24,464 nt of DNA from a virus. Below the pieces are notes generated by a model. That model was not told the DNA's origin and did not search any database. It saw nothing but the letters and a program-made list of their open reading frames with translations. The stretch lies in IMG/VR virus record IMGVR_UViG_3300048586_000279, positions 1-24,464 of that record; one strand, given 5' to 3'. This document shows, piece by piece, positions 6,291 through 24,235 of the stretch; position 1 is the first letter of the stretch, and each line of letters opens with the position of its first letter. A program made the translations under genes and the position numbers.

Positions 6291-7784
6291 CTAGTAGTCG
6301 GTGATGCGGTAGTCCGCGACGTCGTCATCGACGTCGTCCTGGGTGACGACCGGGGTGCCGGTCAGCATCGGGGTGAGCAGGAGCCGGGTCAGAGCCTGGC
6401 TGGTGGCGTCGACCTGGTCGTCGTGGGCGCCGTTCGGGAACGCTGCGGCCTCCTCCACGAGGTCGCCGACCCACGGCGCGAGGTTCGGGTGAGGGAGGTG
6501 CACGTTGCCGGCCTCGATGAACGGCGCGACGGCCTGCGCACGGGACTCCTTCGACCCGTGGGGCTCCTCGGCGACGAGGCCGGGGACGCGGCGCTGCAGC
6601 GCGGCGATGACGGCGGGCCCGTTGGCCTTGTCCTCGACGAGCTTGAGCGCGGCCTGGGGCCAGCGCGCCGTCATCGCGACGACGGCCCGCGCGGTGTCCG
6701 GGAACGCGAGCCGGGCGTGGACCTGGTCGAGGAGGTACGCGTGGACCCCGTCGGTGAACCACACCTGGCCGACGACGAAGTCGGACTTGCTGGTCGCCTT
6801 GAACGCCATGTCCCAGGACTGGATGAGGATGCCGCCGCCGTCGGCGCGGGGCACGAACCGAGACCCATCCGGGCGCTCCACCCAGATGGGATTGTCGTAG
6901 TACGTCCACCAGGAGCGCTGCCAGACGCCGCCCTCGGCGGGGGAGGGGCGGCCCTGGTAGAGCGCGTTCCAGGTGCGCGACCCGGAACGGACCTTGATGG
7001 CTTCCCACTGGGCGACGCTGCGGCCACGGGCGGAGCGCATGTACTCGCCCGGTGCGCGACCCAGCGGGTCAGTCTCGCCACGGGCCGGGTCGTGGTCGGC
7101 CTGCGCGGGGATGTTGACGACGGTCCACAGGTCGCCGTCTTCGGCGTCGAGGAGCCGGCCGGTGAGGTCGTCCTCGTGCCAGCGGGTCTGGATGACGACG
7201 ACGGTCGCGCCGGGTGCGAGGCGGGGGCCGCCGACGTCGGTCCACCAGTCCCAGGCGCGCTGCCGGTACCGGAGGGAGTCGGCCTCGACACGGTCCTTGA
7301 ACGGGTCATCGACGATGAGGAGGTCGACGGGGCGGCCGGTGAGTGCACCGCCGATGCCGGCGGAGTAGACGCCGCCGTCGTGGCCGGCGAGCTGCCACTC
7401 GTGCTGGGCGGCGAGGTCGTCGCGGACACGGAGCCCCAGGCCGGGGTTCATCGTGATGTCGTCGCGGATGACGCGGCCCCAGCGTCGGGCGACGCCGAGC
7501 TCGTAGGACACGACCGCGATGCGCAGGTCGGGGTACTGCTCGAGCGCCCACAGCGGGAACCAGCGTGACGCCCGCTGGGACTTGCCCTCCTGCGGCGGCA
7601 TCGAGATGACGAGGCGGCCGTCGTCGGCGTCGAGCGCGTCGACGAGGGCCCGGTCGATGAGCTCGAGCGCCGGCGTCTGCTTCACCCGCGGGTCGAGGGC
7701 CTGCGCGAGCGCACCCGGGGTGGGGTACGTGCGCGTGGGTGCTTCGAAGGCGCGGGCGGCGAACTCCCAGGCGGTGGCGTTCAC
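6291..7784 (-). CDS. Terminase large subunit (packaging ATPase/nuclease)
   Basis: The protein has 497 residues from GTG 7784; no start closer to the previous gene is better, and the upstream GGTGGTGGA is a modest ribosome site. The ATPase half has a Walker A variant PPQEGKS (63-69), Walker B LLIVDD (155-160) and the TRWHEDDL segment (200-207). The nuclease half has SWDMAFKATSKSDF with Asp325, VEDKANG with Glu384, and HDDQVDA (455-460), the acidic residues of the RNase H-like fold. It cuts concatemeric DNA and drives it into the prohead through the portal encoded next. The small subunit is encoded apart, in the early-type operon at 9794-10411. Confidence 0.96.
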   Translation of the reverse strand: MNATAWEFAARAFEAPTRTYPTPGALAQALDPRVKQTPALELIDRALVDALDADDGRLVISMPPQEGKSQRASRWFPLWALEQYPDLRIAVVSYELGVARRWGRVIRDDITMNPGLGLRVRDDLAAQHEWQLAGHDGGVYSAGIGGALTGRPVDLLIVDDPFKDRVEADSLRYRQRAWDWWTDVGGPRLAPGATVVVIQTRWHEDDLTGRLLDAEDGDLWTVVNIPAQADHDPARGETDPLGRAPGEYMRSARGRSVAQWEAIKVRSGSRTWNALYQGRPSPAEGGVWQRSWWTYYDNPIWVERPDGSRFVPRADGGGILIQSWDMAFKATSKSDFVVGQVWFTDGVHAYLLDQVHARLAFPDTARAVVAMTARWPQAALKLVEDKANGPAVIAALQRRVPGLVAEEPHGSKESRAQAVAPFIEAGNVHLPHPNLAPWVGDLVEEAAAFPNGAHDDQVDATSQALTRLLLTPMLTGTPVVTQDDVDDDVADYRITDY

Positions 7785-7809: not shown

Positions 7810-8004
7810 CTAGTCGTTCCTGATGACCACTGCGTCGAGCCACTTGCCCGGCGCATAGATCGCGGCGACGTGGAGGCTCTGGCCGGCTCGCCGCTTGACG
7901 ATGAGGTGCCCGTCGGAGACGTCGATTGTGGACGCGTCGTCGTGGGTGATGTCCGCGGCGGAGTTGCCGGAGGGGTGACGAGAGATGGTGACCGTGACTG
8001 GCAT
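7810..8004 (-). CDS. Small beta-rich hypothetical protein, first gene of the late operon
   Basis: The protein has 64 residues and starts MPVTVTISRHPSGNSAADIT. It contains alternating short strands (STIDVSDGHLIVKRRAGQSLHVAAIYAPGKWLDAVVI) and no membrane segment or Cys motif. I chose ATG 8004; an in-frame ATG at 8049 would add 15 residues but has a worse context. It precedes the large terminase by 25 bases and follows the promoter-hairpin region at 8096-8178. Many actinophages carry such small proteins here. Function unknown. Confidence 0.65.
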   Translation of the reverse strand: MPVTVTISRHPSGNSAADITHDDASTIDVSDGHLIVKRRAGQSLHVAAIYAPGKWLDAVVIRND

Positions 8005-8095
8005 CTGTTGACCCGTTCGTGCGGGGAGCCCCGTGCTCCCGTTCACCATCGACGATACGGGCGCCCACCCACGAAATCGCGTCGCCAAACGACGA

Positions 8096-8124
8096 AGCCT
8101 CCGCACGCAGTCGCGTCGGAGGCT
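8096..8124 (-). terminator. Strong hairpin just downstream of the late promoter (terminator or attenuator)
   Basis: On the minus strand AGCCTCCG pairs perfectly with CGGAGGCT, and inside the stem ACGC pairs with GCGT around a GACT loop with one bulged G. The hairpin is followed by UCGUCGUUU, a modest U-rich tail. It lies about 20 bases downstream of the predicted start from the promoter at 8151-8178. It may end the early operon, cut short the late transcript, or both. Confidence 0.7.
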
Positions 8125-8127
8125 CTG

Positions 8128-8140
8128 CCACCTCTGGTGG
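8128..8140 (-). other. Short hairpin in the late leader
   Basis: CCACC and GGTGG flank a three-base loop (AGA on the minus strand). It lies between the predicted transcription start near 8144 and the larger hairpin at 8096-8124, so both would form in one leader RNA. Confidence 0.5.
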
Positions 8141-8150
8141 TCTTAGCAGA

Positions 8151-8178
8151 ACCGTACCGGGGAACTTCCGGCCGTCAA
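8151..8178 (-). promoter_or_regulatory. Candidate late promoter, leftward
   Basis: The minus strand has TTGACG (8178-8173), a 16-base spacer and TACGGT (8156-8151). The -35 matches five of six consensus bases and the -10 fits TANNNT. The start would be near 8144. The -35 box overlaps the stop codon of the upstream HTH gene. It is the best promoter-like sequence seen in the window and sits at the boundary between early-type and head genes. The 8005-8174 interval contains no gene. Confidence 0.65.
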
Positions 8179-9170
8179 GCACCACGTCGACCCTCGGCGC
8201 GTCGCTGGGTCTTCTCCTGCTCGCGCTGCCGTGCGTCGATCGCGAGGTCGCGGACGTCACCGACCCGGTACAGGCGCCGGCCGGCCTGGTCACGGCCGCG
8301 GGGGGCGAGGCGGCCCGAGCGCTCCCACCACCGGATCTGGTCCTCGCGGACACCGGTGCCGGTGGTGGTGGCGAGACCTCGGGCGATGTCGGACGCGGTG
8401 GCGAGGCGGTCGTCGAGGGCTTCGGCGAGCCACTCCCGGCGCTGCCGGACGTCGTGCTCGGTGCCGCATGTCCGGCAGGTGGTGGTCCGGCAGCGGTCGC
8501 ACACGTGGTCCTTGCCCTGGTCGGAGTGGTCGAGTGCGTAGACCTCCTCGGGGCAGAGCTGGCCGGTGTTGAGGGGGTCGGCGAGGCACGTCCCGAGGTA
8601 CAGGCGCGGCGCGGGGGTGTCGGCAGCGGCGAGGAGCTGCCGACTGGTGCGGGCGATCGCGGCCTTGAACGCGGGACCGCCGGAGTCGACGCGGGTGAGG
8701 AACGGGATGTTGTCCTTGAGGATCTCGACGAGGAGCCTGTGCGAGCTGGTGATGATCCAGCGGGGCCCGGTGAGGTGGTCGCGGTACTGGCGGAGGCGGT
8801 CGCGGCGGGCTCGGCCGGCGTCGTTGAGGCCGCGACGTGGGGGCCGGTCGAGCTGCTCGAGCGCGGCGAGCTCGCGGTCGATGGCCGGAAGGGCGCTCTT
8901 CGCCCAGGACACGAGCATCGCCATGGACTGCGCGAGCGCCTTGGAGGCGCGTTCGTCCCAGGCGATGACGGGGTCGGCGGATGAGCGGCCGCCGTTGCGG
9001 TCTCCGGTGTTGGTCTGGCGGGTGATGGTGAGATTGAGGTCGTCGACGAGGCTGGGGAGGTCCTCGAGCTGGGTGCGCAGCTCGTCGAGGCAGGCGTCGC
9101 ACAGGGCGCTCGTGGAGGCGGCGGGGATGGGCTTGCCGCAGTCGCACGTCCCGGTCTGGTGGTTGCTCAC
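8175..9170 (-). CDS. Zinc-ribbon protein with C-terminal MerR-type helix-turn-helix
   Basis: The protein has 331 residues from GTG 9170, overlapping the previous stop by GTGA. The N-terminus has CDCGKP and CDAC, a small zinc-binding unit. A helical middle follows. Near residues 215-255 lie CLADPL and then a second cluster, CDRCRTTTCRTCGTEHD. The last 80 residues look like a MerR-type HTH (REDQIRWWERSGRLAPRG, then RRLYRVGDVRDLAI). It is probably a DNA-binding protein. Being the last gene before the late promoter and hairpin, it is a candidate late-gene regulator, but this role is an inference from position. Similar proteins occur near terminase genes of other actinophages. Confidence 0.75.
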   Translation of the reverse strand: MSNHQTGTCDCGKPIPAASTSALCDACLDELRTQLEDLPSLVDDLNLTITRQTNTGDRNGGRSSADPVIAWDERASKALAQSMAMLVSWAKSALPAIDRELAALEQLDRPPRRGLNDAGRARRDRLRQYRDHLTGPRWIITSSHRLLVEILKDNIPFLTRVDSGGPAFKAAIARTSRQLLAAADTPAPRLYLGTCLADPLNTGQLCPEEVYALDHSDQGKDHVCDRCRTTTCRTCGTEHDVRQRREWLAEALDDRLATASDIARGLATTTGTGVREDQIRWWERSGRLAPRGRDQAGRRLYRVGDVRDLAIDARQREQEKTQRRAEGRRGA

Positions 9171-9614: not shown

Positions 9615-9794
9615 TCAGTTCGGGGACGTGTGGCGCGGGCACGGGCAGGTCGGGCGGTGCGGGACGAGCAGCGACTGCGAGCCGTCATCGCGCACGAGCA
9701 CCAAGAACTCGACCTCGACGTCGGGCAGCGGGATCAGGCCGAGCGGGGTGATCGCGGCGCGGTGCATGACCTCGACGTGGCGGTGCAGCTGCAT
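9615..9794 (-). CDS. Small hypothetical protein with C-terminal CPCPRH motif
   Basis: The protein has 59 residues, starting [19 protein letters not shown], from an ATG that overlaps the terminase small subunit stop as TGATG. Its end, PTCPCPRH, could bind metal. The core EVEFLVLVRDDGSQSLLVP is a beta hairpin-like region. GC-rich third positions match the neighbours. Function unknown. Confidence 0.6.
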   Translation of the reverse strand: MQLHRHVEVMHRAAITPLGLIPLPDVEVEFLVLVRDDGSQSLLVPHRPTCPCPRHTSPN

Positions 9795-10411
9795 CAGGCA
9801 CCGCCGGCGATCGCGCGGAGGTGCCGCGGCACCACGGTCGTCACGAGCTTCTGCTGCGCCGGCGTGAGCCGCAGGTCGTCGAGGATCGACCGGATCACGT
9901 CGGCGAGGAGCTGGCCCTGCTGCTCCGCGAGCTGCACGCGCCGCTCCTCGACGCCGGCACGCAGCGCTTCACGGCACACGTCGACGAGGTGCTTGCGCTC
10001 GTCGCGGTACAGCACCAGCCACGCGTTCGGCTTCGCCTCGTAGGTCCTGCCTCGGTCGTCGCCGCCCTCCTTGATCCGGGTCATGCCCCAGACCAGGTCC
10101 TCGTCGCCGATCGCGCGGATCTTCGACTCGAGCCACGCCACGGCGCCCGCGGTGCGATGGACCTCCTCGAGCAGCGCCGCCGCCGGCGCCACCTCACGCG
10201 GCAGCCCGAACGTCGCGACGGCAGCCTCCGCCGCGGCCCGCTCGATGCGCCGGCGAGCTGCCGCCTTCGCCTGGGGAGCGCGGCCGCCGTGGGTGCCGCA
10301 GACACGTTGGCCCTTCATGGGTCGCTTGCCGCAGGGCTGGCCGTCGCTGCGGTGGCTGCTGCAGCGTTCATGGGTCTGGCCGCAGGTGGGGCATGCACGG
10401 GTCGCGGTCAT
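9794..10411 (-). CDS. Terminase small subunit
   Basis: The protein has 205 residues. The N-terminus carries zinc-binding elements: [12 protein letters not shown], then a C-G-K / C-G-T-H-G segment ([20 protein letters not shown]). The latter followed by [16 protein letters not shown] is a hallmark of actinophage small terminases. The rest is helical, with a basic DNA-binding region and a C-terminal oligomerisation-like part. It would recognise the packaging site and recruit the large subunit. It starts by an ATGA overlap with the replication-like gene and is separated from the large subunit by four small genes and the late promoter, so its expression may be earlier than that of its partner. 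Confidence 0.82.
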
Positions 10412-11025
10412 CGGATGACTCCGGCGGCGCGGAGTTCGGGGATGGTGGGTTCGATGGGTGGGGGTGTCCAGCGTTCGGAGACGATGCGGGCGGTCTTGCA
10501 GGGGCCGCAGGCGAGTTCGGTTCCGCCGGGGTGCTTGCGGCACCAGGGTTCAGGGCGTGTGCGTGCAGTGAGCGTTGACGATGCCTCCCCCTCCTTCTCC
10601 CCTTCCCCCTCCCCCTCCTGCCGGGAGTCTCCGTGGAGTCGTTCAGTGAGCGATTCAGTGAGTCGTTCGTGAGTGGGGCAGGGTGGGATCACGGAGGGTG
10701 TGGGGCGGTTGGGCTTCTGGTGCTCGCGCCAGTTCACGGCGTGCATGTAGTGCTCGCCGTCGACCTCGTACCTGCACAGGGGAGCGGGGCGGGCGGGGTT
10801 CGAGCTGGTGGTGAAGAGGTCGAGCCAGTGGCGCATCTTCTTCTCGGTGACGTCGCGGTCGAGGGGGAAGAGGTCGGCGAGGATGAGGCGGACGTCGTCG
10901 ATGCCGCGGCCGTAGTCGTCGAGGTAGCCCCAGAGGAGCACCCAGGCGTAGCGGGCTTCGCGGGGCCAGGCGGCGACGACGCGGCTGGTCCTGAGGGAGG
11001 GCTTCACGGAGCGGATCCGTGCCAT
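10408..11025 (-). CDS. Phage replication initiator / replisome organizer-like protein
   Basis: The protein has 205 residues. It starts [20 protein letters not shown], and continues with [18 protein letters not shown] and [18 protein letters not shown]. This N-terminus is typical of actinophage DnaD-like or replisome-organizer proteins, which bind the origin and recruit helicase. A low-complexity linker ([11 protein letters not shown], residues 137-148) and a repeat LTESLTERL follow, then a C-terminal zinc-like segment (CRKHPGG, CGPC). The ATG overlaps the previous stop as TGATG. The repeats in its coding sequence resemble a phage origin (see separate entry). Specific family name is an inference. 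Confidence 0.72.
10584..10673 (-). other. Candidate replication origin inside the initiator-like gene
   Basis: Three near-identical units of 12, 12 and 11 bases lie at 10639-10673; the first two share TTCAGTGAG and the third has TTCGTGAG. Beside them is a 36-base uninterrupted pyrimidine run on the + strand (10584-10619) with the 12-mer CCTCCCCCTCCT at both ends. In lambda-like phages iterons and a low-complexity region within the O gene form the origin. No AT-rich unwinding region is visible here, so the call is tentative. Confidence 0.4.
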
Positions 11026-20887: not shown

Positions 20888-21003
20888 GGCTTGAAGATCA
20901 CGAGTTGCTAACGGGAAAGACAGGCAGGCGTGCAAGGCACCTGACCTGCGTAAAGACACCGGCGTAACTCTGTGACCAGCACCCTTGCGTGCGTGCGTGT
21001 CCG

Positions 21004-21032
21004 ACTTGTGCCGACATGGACGCCAGTAACTT
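21004..21032 (+). promoter_or_regulatory. Repressor promoter, leaderless
   Basis: TAACTT (21027-21032) fits TANNNT and is followed by exactly seven bases before the repressor ATG at 21040. The -35 is poor: ACTTGT at 17-base spacing, or TTGTGC at 15. A weak -35 suits a promoter that needs or tolerates binding of its own product. Confidence 0.6.
21006..21017. promoter_or_regulatory. Candidate operator O2 (TTGTGCCGACAT)
   Basis: This matches the O1 palindrome at nine of twelve bases, with TGT and ACA arms kept. It overlaps the -35 region of the repressor promoter. A shorter related sequence (TGTCCGAC) starts seven bases earlier. The match is degenerate, so the call is tentative. Confidence 0.4.
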
Positions 21033-21039
21033 CAGGGTC

Positions 21040-21405
21040 ATGAGCACGAACTGGCCGGAGTACCTCAAGGCCGCGATGGAGGCTGCAGGCGTGAAGAGCG
21101 CCGCGGACCTGTCACGGCGCACCGGCATCGGGGAGGCGCAGATCAGCCGATGGCTGCGCGGCCAGAACCAGACCGAGATGCCGATGCTCAGGCGCCTCTC
21201 GCCTGTCCTCAAAGTCCCACTGCTCGAGCTCGCCGTCGCGGCCGGTCACATCGAGCCGGCCGAGGCCCGCATGAAGGACCTCCCGACACCGCCACCGGTG
21301 CCTGTGGGTGCCGGGGTAGACCCTGACGTCCTCGCCGACCTCGCGGCCGCCAGCCCAGAGGTCATCGAGGCCGTCCGAGCACTGATCCGAGCAACGAAGG
21401 GGTGA
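21040..21405 (+). CDS. Phage repressor (XRE-type HTH)
   Basis: The protein has 121 residues, starting MSTNWPEYLKAAMEAAGVKS. The HTH spans about residues 19-42 (SAADLSRRTGIGEAQISRWL, then RGQNQ), with a typical XRE recognition helix. The C-terminal half has a proline-rich linker (PTPPPVPVGAG) and a helical tail (PEVIEAVRALIRATKG), with no peptidase domain. I chose ATG 21040 over ATG 21016 because of the TAACTT box seven bases upstream. It heads the lysogeny operon; the next gene is an ImmA-type peptidase that could cleave it on induction. Confidence 0.85.
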   Translation: MSTNWPEYLKAAMEAAGVKSAADLSRRTGIGEAQISRWLRGQNQTEMPMLRRLSPVLKVPLLELAVAAGHIEPAEARMKDLPTPPPVPVGAGVDPDVLADLAAASPEVIEAVRALIRATKG

Positions 21406-22194: not shown

Positions 22195-22796
22195 AGAACG
22201 CGATCGTCGTGACAGCGGCCATCATCAGCGTGACGCTCGTCGGCTGCTCGAGCCCAGCGAGCACGGCGACACCGACCGCGCCTCCTTCGAGTGCGGCTGC
22301 GGACACGCCTAGCGCGACACCGACACCGACCACGTCGTCGCCGACCCCCTCTCCGAGCGCCAGCGCGTCCGTGTTCACCAAGCAGCAGGCAGCCGCCTAC
22401 TACCTCTCGGTGATCTGCCCGAGCAACGCATCCATCGACGCGGTGTCAGACGCCGTGTTCGGCAAGAAGAAGACCGTCTACTTCCTCGAGTTCTCCAAGG
22501 CCAAGCGGGACAAGGTCCGCAAGAAGGCCAAGGCCGCAGCAGCGGCGAGCCGTCTGGCCGCGTCGCAGCTCGACGGCCCCCCATCCGCATGGCCCCCGAA
22601 CGTGCGGAAGTCCATGGACAAGCTCGTCGTCGAGATGCTCAAGAGCTACGAGTGGTACGCGAACCTCGGCGCTGCCAAGTCCAACTCGACCCTCCTCGCT
22701 CGCTGGAACACCGACCTCAAGTCCTCCGGCGCGGCGCAGCTCATCCGCCTGCGCCTCGGCCTTCCCGCCACGGGCAAGGGGTGCCCCAAGACGTGA
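22191..22796 (+). CDS. Lipoprotein in the lysogeny operon
   Basis: The protein has 201 residues. A signal peptide ends in the lipobox LVGC with Cys19 as the lipid site. A linker rich in T, P, S and A (about 20-60) would cross the cell wall layer. The mature domain of about 140 residues has helical charged parts (FSKAKRDKVRKKAKAAAAAS) and two cysteines (in VICPSNAS and at GKGCPKT) that could form a disulfide. Translation is coupled to the membrane protein (ATGA) and to the integrase (GTGA). A surface lipoprotein made in the lysogen may change phage adsorption or DNA entry; this is an inference. Family not recognised. Confidence 0.82.
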   Translation: MKNAIVVTAAIISVTLVGCSSPASTATPTAPPSSAAADTPSATPTPTTSSPTPSPSASASVFTKQQAAAYYLSVICPSNASIDAVSDAVFGKKKTVYFLEFSKAKRDKVRKKAKAAAAASRLAASQLDGPPSAWPPNVRKSMDKLVVEMLKSYEWYANLGAAKSNSTLLARWNTDLKSSGAAQLIRLRLGLPATGKGCPKT

Positions 22797-24235
22797 CACT
22801 CACCTCCCAGGAACACGCGAGTGGCGCACGCGCAGTGATCTACGTGCGGCAGTCGGTGGCGCGTGAGGAGTCGATCAGCCTCGAGCTGCAGGAAGCAGCC
22901 TGCCGCGAGTACGCGACCCGGCACGGGTACAGCGTCGTCGACGTCATCGCCGACCCCGGTGTCTCCGGGCTGAAGTGGGAGCGCCGCCCGGGCATCCAGC
23001 GGGTCATGGCGATGGTCACCGACCGTGCCGCCGACGTCGTCCTCGTGTGGCGCTGGTCGAGGCTGTCCCGGCAGCGGCTGCACCAGGCCGTCGCGCTGGA
23101 CACCATCGAGCGCGCCGGCGGCCGGGTCGAGTCCGCGACAGAGCCGTTCGACACGAGCACCGCCGGCGGCGAGTTCGGTCGCGACGTCATGCTCGCCGCA
23201 GCGCACTTCGAGTCCCGGCAGAAGTCCGAGCAGTGGCGCGAGACCCACGCCCGCCGCCTCGCCCTCGGCCTGCCGTCCCGGGGCGGCGACCGGTACGGCT
23301 ACGACCGCGACGGCGACACCTACCGGCCGAACCCGACCACCGGCCCCGTGCTCGCCGGCATGTACGCCGACTACATCTCCGGCCTCGGGTTCACCGCGAT
23401 CGCCGCCGGCCTCAACGCCGCCGGACACCGCACCAGCCGCGGCAACCCCTGGACCTCCGACCGGGTCTCCCGCACCCTCGACTCCGGGTTCGGCGCCGGG
23501 CTGAACGCCCGCGGTACCGGCCCCCGGGCCACCCACACACCCGGCGTCCACCCGCCCGTCATCGACGCAGACACGTGGGCTGCATATATACGTGTCCGCG
23601 GAGCCCGCGCCGGGCAGCCACCGAAGACCACCACGCCCGCGTACCTACTCACCGGGCTCATCGTCTGCGGAGACTGCGGCCGCCCCATGTGGGCCAACCG
23701 CCTCGGCCGCCACGCCGGCTACGGCTACGTCTGCTCCACCTGGCAGCGCTCCCGGACCTGCCGCTGCGTCACCGTGTCCCGCGCCAAGGCCGAGCGGGCA
23801 CTCGTCTCCTGGCTCGAGCAGGTCGCCGGCGACGTCGTCGAGGAGCAGCGCGTCACCCGGCAACGCGCCGCCACTCACCAGCGCGCCGACGAGCAGCTCG
23901 ACCGCGCGACCCGGCAGCTCGACACCACCCGCGCCCGCCTCGCGAAGCTCACCCTCGGCTGGACCGACGGGCTCGTCCCCGACAGCGCCTACGCCACCGC
24001 CCGCGACGAGCTCCTCACCCTCGAGCAGGACCTCACCGCACGCATCACCACCGCCACCCACGAAGCCACCGTCACGCGGCTGCCCGCGGCGCCGATCGCG
24101 CGCCGACTCCTCGACGAGTGGGACGACCTCCCGCTCGCGATCCGCCGCGAGATCGCGTCGGGGCTGGTCGCCCGCGTCGTCGTGAACCGGCCCCCCGACC
24201 GCGGCCCCGTCACGGTCACCGTCGAACCTCGCTGA
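22793..24235 (+). CDS. int: Large serine integrase
   Basis: The protein has 480 residues from GTG 22793, which overlaps the lipoprotein stop as GTGA; the open frame extends further upstream but that part is antisense-like overlap with the lipoprotein gene. The resolvase domain has YVRQS (Ser21, catalytic), the SLELQEAACREYA segment and WSRLSR (88-93). A recombinase domain (about 165-290) follows, then a zinc ribbon (CGDC at 292-295, then C314, C323, C325), and a coiled coil around 350-420. It catalyses attP x attB integration. It is the last gene of the lysogeny operon, so integrase is expected to be made with the repressor. Confidence 0.96.
   Translation: MTLTSQEHASGARAVIYVRQSVAREESISLELQEAACREYATRHGYSVVDVIADPGVSGLKWERRPGIQRVMAMVTDRAADVVLVWRWSRLSRQRLHQAVALDTIERAGGRVESATEPFDTSTAGGEFGRDVMLAAAHFESRQKSEQWRETHARRLALGLPSRGGDRYGYDRDGDTYRPNPTTGPVLAGMYADYISGLGFTAIAAGLNAAGHRTSRGNPWTSDRVSRTLDSGFGAGLNARGTGPRATHTPGVHPPVIDADTWAAYIRVRGARAGQPPKTTTPAYLLTGLIVCGDCGRPMWANRLGRHAGYGYVCSTWQRSRTCRCVTVSRAKAERALVSWLEQVAGDVVEEQRVTRQRAATHQRADEQLDRATRQLDTTRARLAKLTLGWTDGLVPDSAYATARDELLTLEQDLTARITTATHEATVTRLPAAPIARRLLDEWDDLPLAIRREIASGLVARVVVNRPPDRGPVTVTVEPR
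23570..23596. repeat. Inverted repeat with AT-rich centre inside the integrase gene
   Basis: GACACGT (23570-23576) and ACGTGTC (23590-23596) are perfect inverted arms around 13 bases ending in GCATATAT. The centre uses codons that are rare in this window (GCA TAT ATA CGT). It lies between the recombinase domain and the zinc ribbon. Confidence 0.6.

Follow-up and report, generated by a model that had tools for sequence, protein, structure and literature searches.

A promoter-then-hairpin arrangement beside a PHROG 908 gene as a candidate late switch in an actinobacterial temperate phage

The stretch of DNA analysed in this work, below called the window, is the G+C-rich source record of 24,464 bases (IMGVR_UViG_3300048586_000279). 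Its gene content points to a temperate phage; the phage is of actinobacterial type. The plus strand carries the genes of a repressor-type HTH protein and a serine integrase, while those of RecE-like and RecT-like proteins, a replication initiation protein, a ParB-like protein, P0001, terminase, portal and head maturation protease are located on the minus strand (Table 1). The early-to-late boundary falls at 8175-7784 and includes the small gene P0002, for which no family matches were found. Just ahead of this gene (8004-7810) a third hairpin, GGGAGC-ACGGG-GCTCCC, is present at 8041-8025, in addition to the two listed in the table.

Table 1. Coordinates of the genes and predicted elements discussed in the text
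Feature	Position	Strand	Basis
Repressor-type HTH protein	20989-21405	+	
Serine integrase	22589-24235	+	
P0001, PHROG 908 zinc/MerR-like HTH protein, 331 aa, candidate late regulator	8175-9170	-	phrog_908 match
Candidate late promoter: -35 TTGACG (8178-8173), 16 bp spacer, -10 TACGGT (8156-8151)	8151-8178	-	sequence
Dyad GGTTCTGC (8153-8146) / GCAGAGCC (8128-8121)	8121-8153	-	window compared with L082
TAAGAC, second -10-like hexamer, 11 nt past the -10; possible sigma-dependent pause element	8140-8145	-	
Predicted +1, A, 7 nt past the -10	8144	-	deduced from -10 position
Small leader hairpin CCACC-AGA-GGTGG	8128-8140	-	sequence
Main terminator-like hairpin AGCCTCCG-ACGC-GACT-GCGT-G-CGGAGGCT, 8+4 bp	8096-8124	-	folding
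Interrupted U-rich tail TCGTCGTTT	8087-8095	-	sequence
P0002, small gene, 64 aa, first after the main hairpin	7810-8004	-	
Terminase large subunit; the late operon begins here	6291-7784	-	phrog_38, E 9e-102

The initial annotation had proposed a TTGACG-16-TACGGT promoter on the minus strand with a predicted start at 8144, and these coordinates were confirmed in the sequence. The -35 hexamer overlaps the TGA stop codon of P0001 (8177-8175). In a scan of the window for sigma70-like matches, this candidate ranks first on the minus strand and second on both strands, its score being 8.7 as against 4.7 for the best candidate between the hairpin and the terminase gene. A strict consensus scan flagged neither promoter nor terminator (8 of 12 promoter positions match and the T-tract is interrupted). 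Shuffles of the window are expected to yield a comparably strong pair of promoter and hairpin about 0.8 times per strand, so the pair taken alone is not decisive. What lifts it above chance is its position between a regulator gene and the late genes, together with its recurrence in relatives.

The main hairpin with its 8+4 bp stem, the U-rich tail and the smaller hairpin before it were likewise found as annotated, the tail TCGTCGTTT being interrupted and weak beside E. coli terminators. The main hairpin begins 20 nt past the predicted start. An RNA of 87 nt folds with -42.9 kcal/mol (z -2.98), a value equalled by one of 200 shuffles, and the main stem forms with a probability of 0.97 in RNA begun at the predicted start. 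The main hairpin is still preferred (0.89-0.90) in RNAs begun 25 or 80 nt further upstream. The folding thus predicts no switch that depends on the start, and attenuation by way of the GGTTCTGC/GCAGAGCC dyad, whose arms are conserved between the window and its relative L082 while the interior is divergent, was rejected on these values. The promoter-hairpin region has no match in Rfam, and a nucleotide search of this stretch against named phages found nothing. Exact occurrences of GGTACGGTTCTGCTA in viral contigs amount to 22 stretches, the sole related one lying in the L082 contig.

Persistence of the hairpin in RNAs started upstream would also suit an ordinary boundary, in which case the hairpin would stop early transcripts coming from further upstream, and the resemblance to a promoter would be fortuitous or the promoter a weak one. 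A terminator is expected at an early/late boundary anyway, and the chance frequency given above speaks for this explanation as well. We nevertheless regard it as unlikely, since the relatives are at odds with it in several respects. The closest one, L082, whose P0001 homologue is 85% identical, shares the -35 core and the -10 with the window promoter. In L082 and in the pair L029/L030 the terminase gene begins directly past the hairpin, which leaves no room for a late promoter beyond the hairpin; in L082 its ATG is situated 5 nt beyond. Further points against a mere boundary are the precedence of the promoter over the hairpin across many phages and, in mycobacteriophage Adephagia, a separate terminator already ahead of the promoter; both are described below.

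Comparison with L082 also bears on the hairpin itself. The stem AGCCCCCA/TGGGGGCT of L082 differs from AGCCTCCG/CGGAGGCT of the window by two compensated pairs; an alignment of related prophages to see covarying stem bases had been advised in the initial annotation. The small leader hairpin (8128-8140) is not kept in L082, and no T-tract follows the main hairpin there. A second relative, L152, is an actinomycete metagenome contig with a terminase start 78% identical to that of the window; it has a promoter-like pair, TTGCGC-17-CAGTGT, followed by a hairpin with the tail TTTCGCTTT. At the corresponding place ahead of its terminase gene, inspection by eye shows a short ORF similar to P0002. No P0001 homologue was found within 3.1 kb upstream in L152. 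The terminase large subunit of L082 (3972-6540, an open frame of 855 residues) contains an apparent intein-like insertion, which follows the GK in the ATPase motif.

Recurrence of the arrangement was surveyed in 55 non-redundant loci following the stops of PHROG 908 genes, partly by automatic calls and partly by eye, with thresholds picked during the analysis. In the 300 nt next to the stop, promoter-then-hairpin modules reach a density of 0.53/kb at strict thresholds, versus 0.015-0.026/kb in flanking DNA of the same loci, a 20-35-fold enrichment; at looser thresholds it is 0.91/kb versus 0.07-0.16/kb. Loci with a module number 10 in the sense and 2 in the antisense direction (strict), or 16 and 9 (loose). 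Even at the looser thresholds 39 of the 55 loci have no module and 16 pass. Several others (L004, L008, L016, L035) show by eye a module further on, ahead of terminase; in some loci, L010 and L051 for example, none was seen. A first module score, computed over regions of 300 nt, failed to distinguish the sense from the antisense strand, whereas position-specific tests did so. In the test of order, each locus contributed its strongest hairpin in the 260 nt next to the stop, provided that it reached -18 kcal/mol or lower (n=25). Promoter scores upstream of these strong hairpins (median 5.8) exceed those downstream or on the other strand (medians 3.1, 1.7 and 4.0; Wilcoxon P 0.008, 0.0006 and 0.004, respectively). 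Because the best promoters lie upstream of the strong hairpins, the order is that of promoter and then terminator, not the ordinary one of terminator and then promoter.

In many unrelated loci the stop of the homologue coincides with, or lies close to, a promoter-like pair, and a short and a strong hairpin follow in that order. Most modules have spacers of 16-18 bp. In many modules a short hairpin occupies the position of the small leader hairpin of the window, and the RNA predicted from start to hairpin end measures 37-74 nt in 15 modules. Over 21 modules a -10-like hexamer occurs at offset 11 more often than expected, with a family-wise P of 0.007 for the positions T1/A2/T6 and 0.059 for the full matrix, a test weakened by related modules in the set and by the pattern having been noticed before testing. 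The TAAGAC of the window misses the last T of this hexamer. A role of the hexamer as a pause element is suggestive only.

The leaders differ in how far their sequence is kept. In one group some 20 nt of the leader are invariant, and the hairpin arms vary yet still pair; an exact search for the leader motif of this group in 2.9 million viral contigs returned seven matches, and in six of these the motif comes immediately behind a PHROG 908 gene. Between groups the leader sequence is not conserved and the layout alone is. These data, together with the shortness of the leaders, bear on the idea that the product of the locus is a small RNA of about 50-60 nt acting in trans, the late genes being expressed by partial constitutive read-through. 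An invariant leader would fit such an RNA, and so would the abundant RNAs of about 100 nt reported in lysogen and late growth of phage Giles, as cited in PMC5488031. Against it speak the conservation of layout without leader sequence between groups, the lack of an Rfam match mentioned above and the match of Giles to the PHROG 908 profile, which is weak and partial. We therefore consider a trans-acting RNA quite improbable. The small terminated RNA, which the initial annotation had named beside an antitermination switch, is as such a by-product of the promoter-hairpin layout and not a clean alternative to it.

Two further observations concern the DNA that follows PHROG 908 genes. In six loci (L083, L084, L104, L107, L110 and L113) the stop is followed by CTTGCCAA..GTGCAAGAT promoter-like sites with leader dyads; the next genes are on the opposite strand, and terminase is encoded 4-8 kb on, on the same strand, in the five with a terminase found. 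In another six, tRNA genes are located between the late-promoter region and terminase (L008:3235-3313, L009:3256-3330, L100:3252-3325, L033:2943-3016, L079:3650-3720 and L126:3847-3920), four of them being tRNA-Met (CAT). The tRNA gene of L008 lies between promoter and terminator-like hairpin, those of L100 and L033 just past the hairpin.

Among named phages, Adephagia provides a late start that can be compared with the predicted one. According to PMC11373665, its late transcription starts in the gap between genes 92 and 93. In this gap we found a terminator after gene 92, then TAGACT, and 30 nt further on a hairpin of -34 kcal/mol. Adephagia thus resembles the window in having a late start in a gap with a promoter-like -10 and a strong hairpin and in encoding a PHROG 908 protein, gp72. 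It differs in that the gp72 gene is about 9 kb before the late promoter, whereas in the window the gene adjoins it, and neither an exact start nor termination is reported for it. A small lysogenic RNA at this promoter is not mentioned in the excerpted text of the same paper. By eye, a promoter-like site and then a strong hairpin are also visible downstream of the PHROG 908 gene in Whack, TPA4 and the M. abscessus prophage prophiGD51-1, so the module recurs in phages of Rhodococcus, Tsukamurella and M. abscessus. The Giles RNA is reported to be short and abundant both in the lysogen and in late growth, as would be expected of a constitutive terminated late leader; what sets Giles apart is its weak and partial matching to PHROG 908.

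P0001 matches phrog_908 with E 3.5e-37 over residues 11-329, and homologues from L083, L098, L112 and L131 as well as Adephagia gp72 also belong to this family (E 2e-26 to 5e-144). With the L112 protein as query, at least 333 phage records were found to encode relatives, among them phages of Mycobacterium, Gordonia, Rhodococcus, Arthrobacter and Tsukamurella. The match of P0001 to MerR_1 (PF13411) is borderline, 21.8 bits at a cut-off of 21.6. An AlphaFold2 model (mean pLDDT 86) predicts an N-terminal helical bundle, a zinc ribbon and a C-terminal MerR-like winged HTH, and aligns to MerR, SoxR and related chains with a VIA Z of about 6. Matches in Pfam, PHROGs and NCBIfam comprise just MerR, zinc-ribbon, DNA-binding and unknown-function families, with no Q family among them; a Q chain is also absent among the matches listed by the fold search (Foldseek, VIA-align), which we do not count as evidence against a Q-like role. 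The PHROG 908 gene of Denise and Malisha comes after those of a RepA-like initiator and a RusA-like resolvase, a position occupied by Q in lambdoid phages. The suggestion that the MerR-type HTH/zinc protein is the partner of the promoter and hairpin is supported by comparison in its positional part, the place before the promoter recurring in relatives, and gained no sequence match to Q.

The winged HTH fold at the C-terminus, which P0001 shares with MerR-family activators while differing from them in its large extra helical and zinc domains, would allow another role, that of a classical activator of the 8151-8178 promoter, with the hairpin serving RNA processing or stability. MerR-activated promoters typically have spacers of 19-20 bp, whereas that of the window has 16 bp and those of most modules 16-18 bp; moreover, the -35 box of the window promoter is a good one. 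Classical activation is therefore, in our judgement, improbable.

The genomic position of the family was examined in 20 records with three terminase models (phrog_38, PF03354 and phrog_2). In all 16 records in which TerL was found, the PHROG 908 homologue is located upstream of it on the same strand, at a distance ranging from adjacent to about 8 kb. That this position is kept with different types of terminase accords with a protein that regulates the late operon. A gene adjoining that of TerL could also encode the small terminase subunit, in which case the dyads would mark a packaging site. The Jace homologue is annotated as terminase small subunit, Adephagia gp72 was matched to TerS by DALI (PMC11373665), and a viral packaging DNA-binding domain (7lw0) is among the structural matches of P0001, weakly, with Z 5.7. 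No TerS family, however, is among the Pfam, PHROGs and NCBIfam matches of P0001, and the homologues of Adephagia and Fishburne reside among replication-region genes, away from the genome ends. In addition, the window has a better candidate: 9794-10543, which in the window is on the early side, belongs to phrog_3678 (unknown function), and its homologue stands immediately before TerL in L002 and L003. This gene is the probable small terminase subunit, which makes the same function for the zinc/HTH protein less likely still, and we hold it to be very improbable.

Taken with the gene order, the results are best accommodated by a late switch at 8178-8087, built like lambda PR'-tR' and operating by conditional read-through, with the PHROG 908 protein as the likeliest factor; we would give this reading a probability of roughly 55%. 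At the end of the early operon, transcription would begin near 8144 from a host sigma70-type promoter, and the polymerase would meet the strong hairpin, which ends about 50 nt on, where most transcripts would be stopped or stalled. Without read-through the outcome would be a short RNA of about 50-60 nt. A phage factor would permit read-through and hence expression of 7810-8004, terminase, portal and later genes, this factor most likely being the zinc/HTH protein whose gene stop overlaps the -35 box. Promoter activity at 8151-8178, conditional read-through and the identity of the factor are what we infer from this layout, and termination at 8124-8096 is an assumption, with tails that are weakly T-rich and in L082 none. 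The 39 loci lacking a module, L152 with its module but no homologue in the DNA upstream, and the 9 kb between gene and promoter in Adephagia count against the proposal. Hence the PR'-tR'-like layout of the initial annotation holds in its order, which recurs and is enriched in the 55 loci, and less so in its terminator, given a weak U-tract here and its absence from L082.

The recurrent order in distant actinobacterial phages suggests that their late genes may be gated by lambda-style read-through with an unrelated protein. A bolder proposal, to which we assign somewhat less than even chances, is that PHROG 908 constitutes a new class of antiterminators, unrelated to Q in sequence, which would load at a promoter-proximal pause and carry the polymerase through the hairpin; many phages of actinobacteria would share this as their general late switch. 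If the switch is as proposed, PHROG 908, listed as unknown, gains a function, and lambda-style control by read-through would seem to have arisen more than once, with different proteins. A 2022 review counts few late promoters of mycobacteriophages as characterised and considers their regulation worth studying (PMC9262239). To the activation of late genes in actinobacterial phages the candidate switch contributes a concrete promoter, a hairpin and a named protein family.

The system to which the window compares most closely is that of lambda Q, PR' and tR', with its Q21 and Q82 counterparts. In common are a regulator gene immediately before the late promoter, a good sigma70 promoter, a terminator-like hairpin before the first late gene, a short RNA and perhaps a -10-like element at the very start of the transcript, the pause element of lambda being at +1 to +6 (PMC4604602). 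In contrast to lambda, the U-tract of the window is weak. The distance differs too, since lambda tR' is situated about 190 nt from the start and the hairpins of the modules end 37-74 nt from the predicted one. Finally, in place of Q the window has a PHROG 908 zinc/MerR-HTH protein with no detected sequence relation to it. As far as can be read from the genes and their order, the candidate regulator is Q-like in the layout of the system in which it stands, and by sequence not a member of the Q family.
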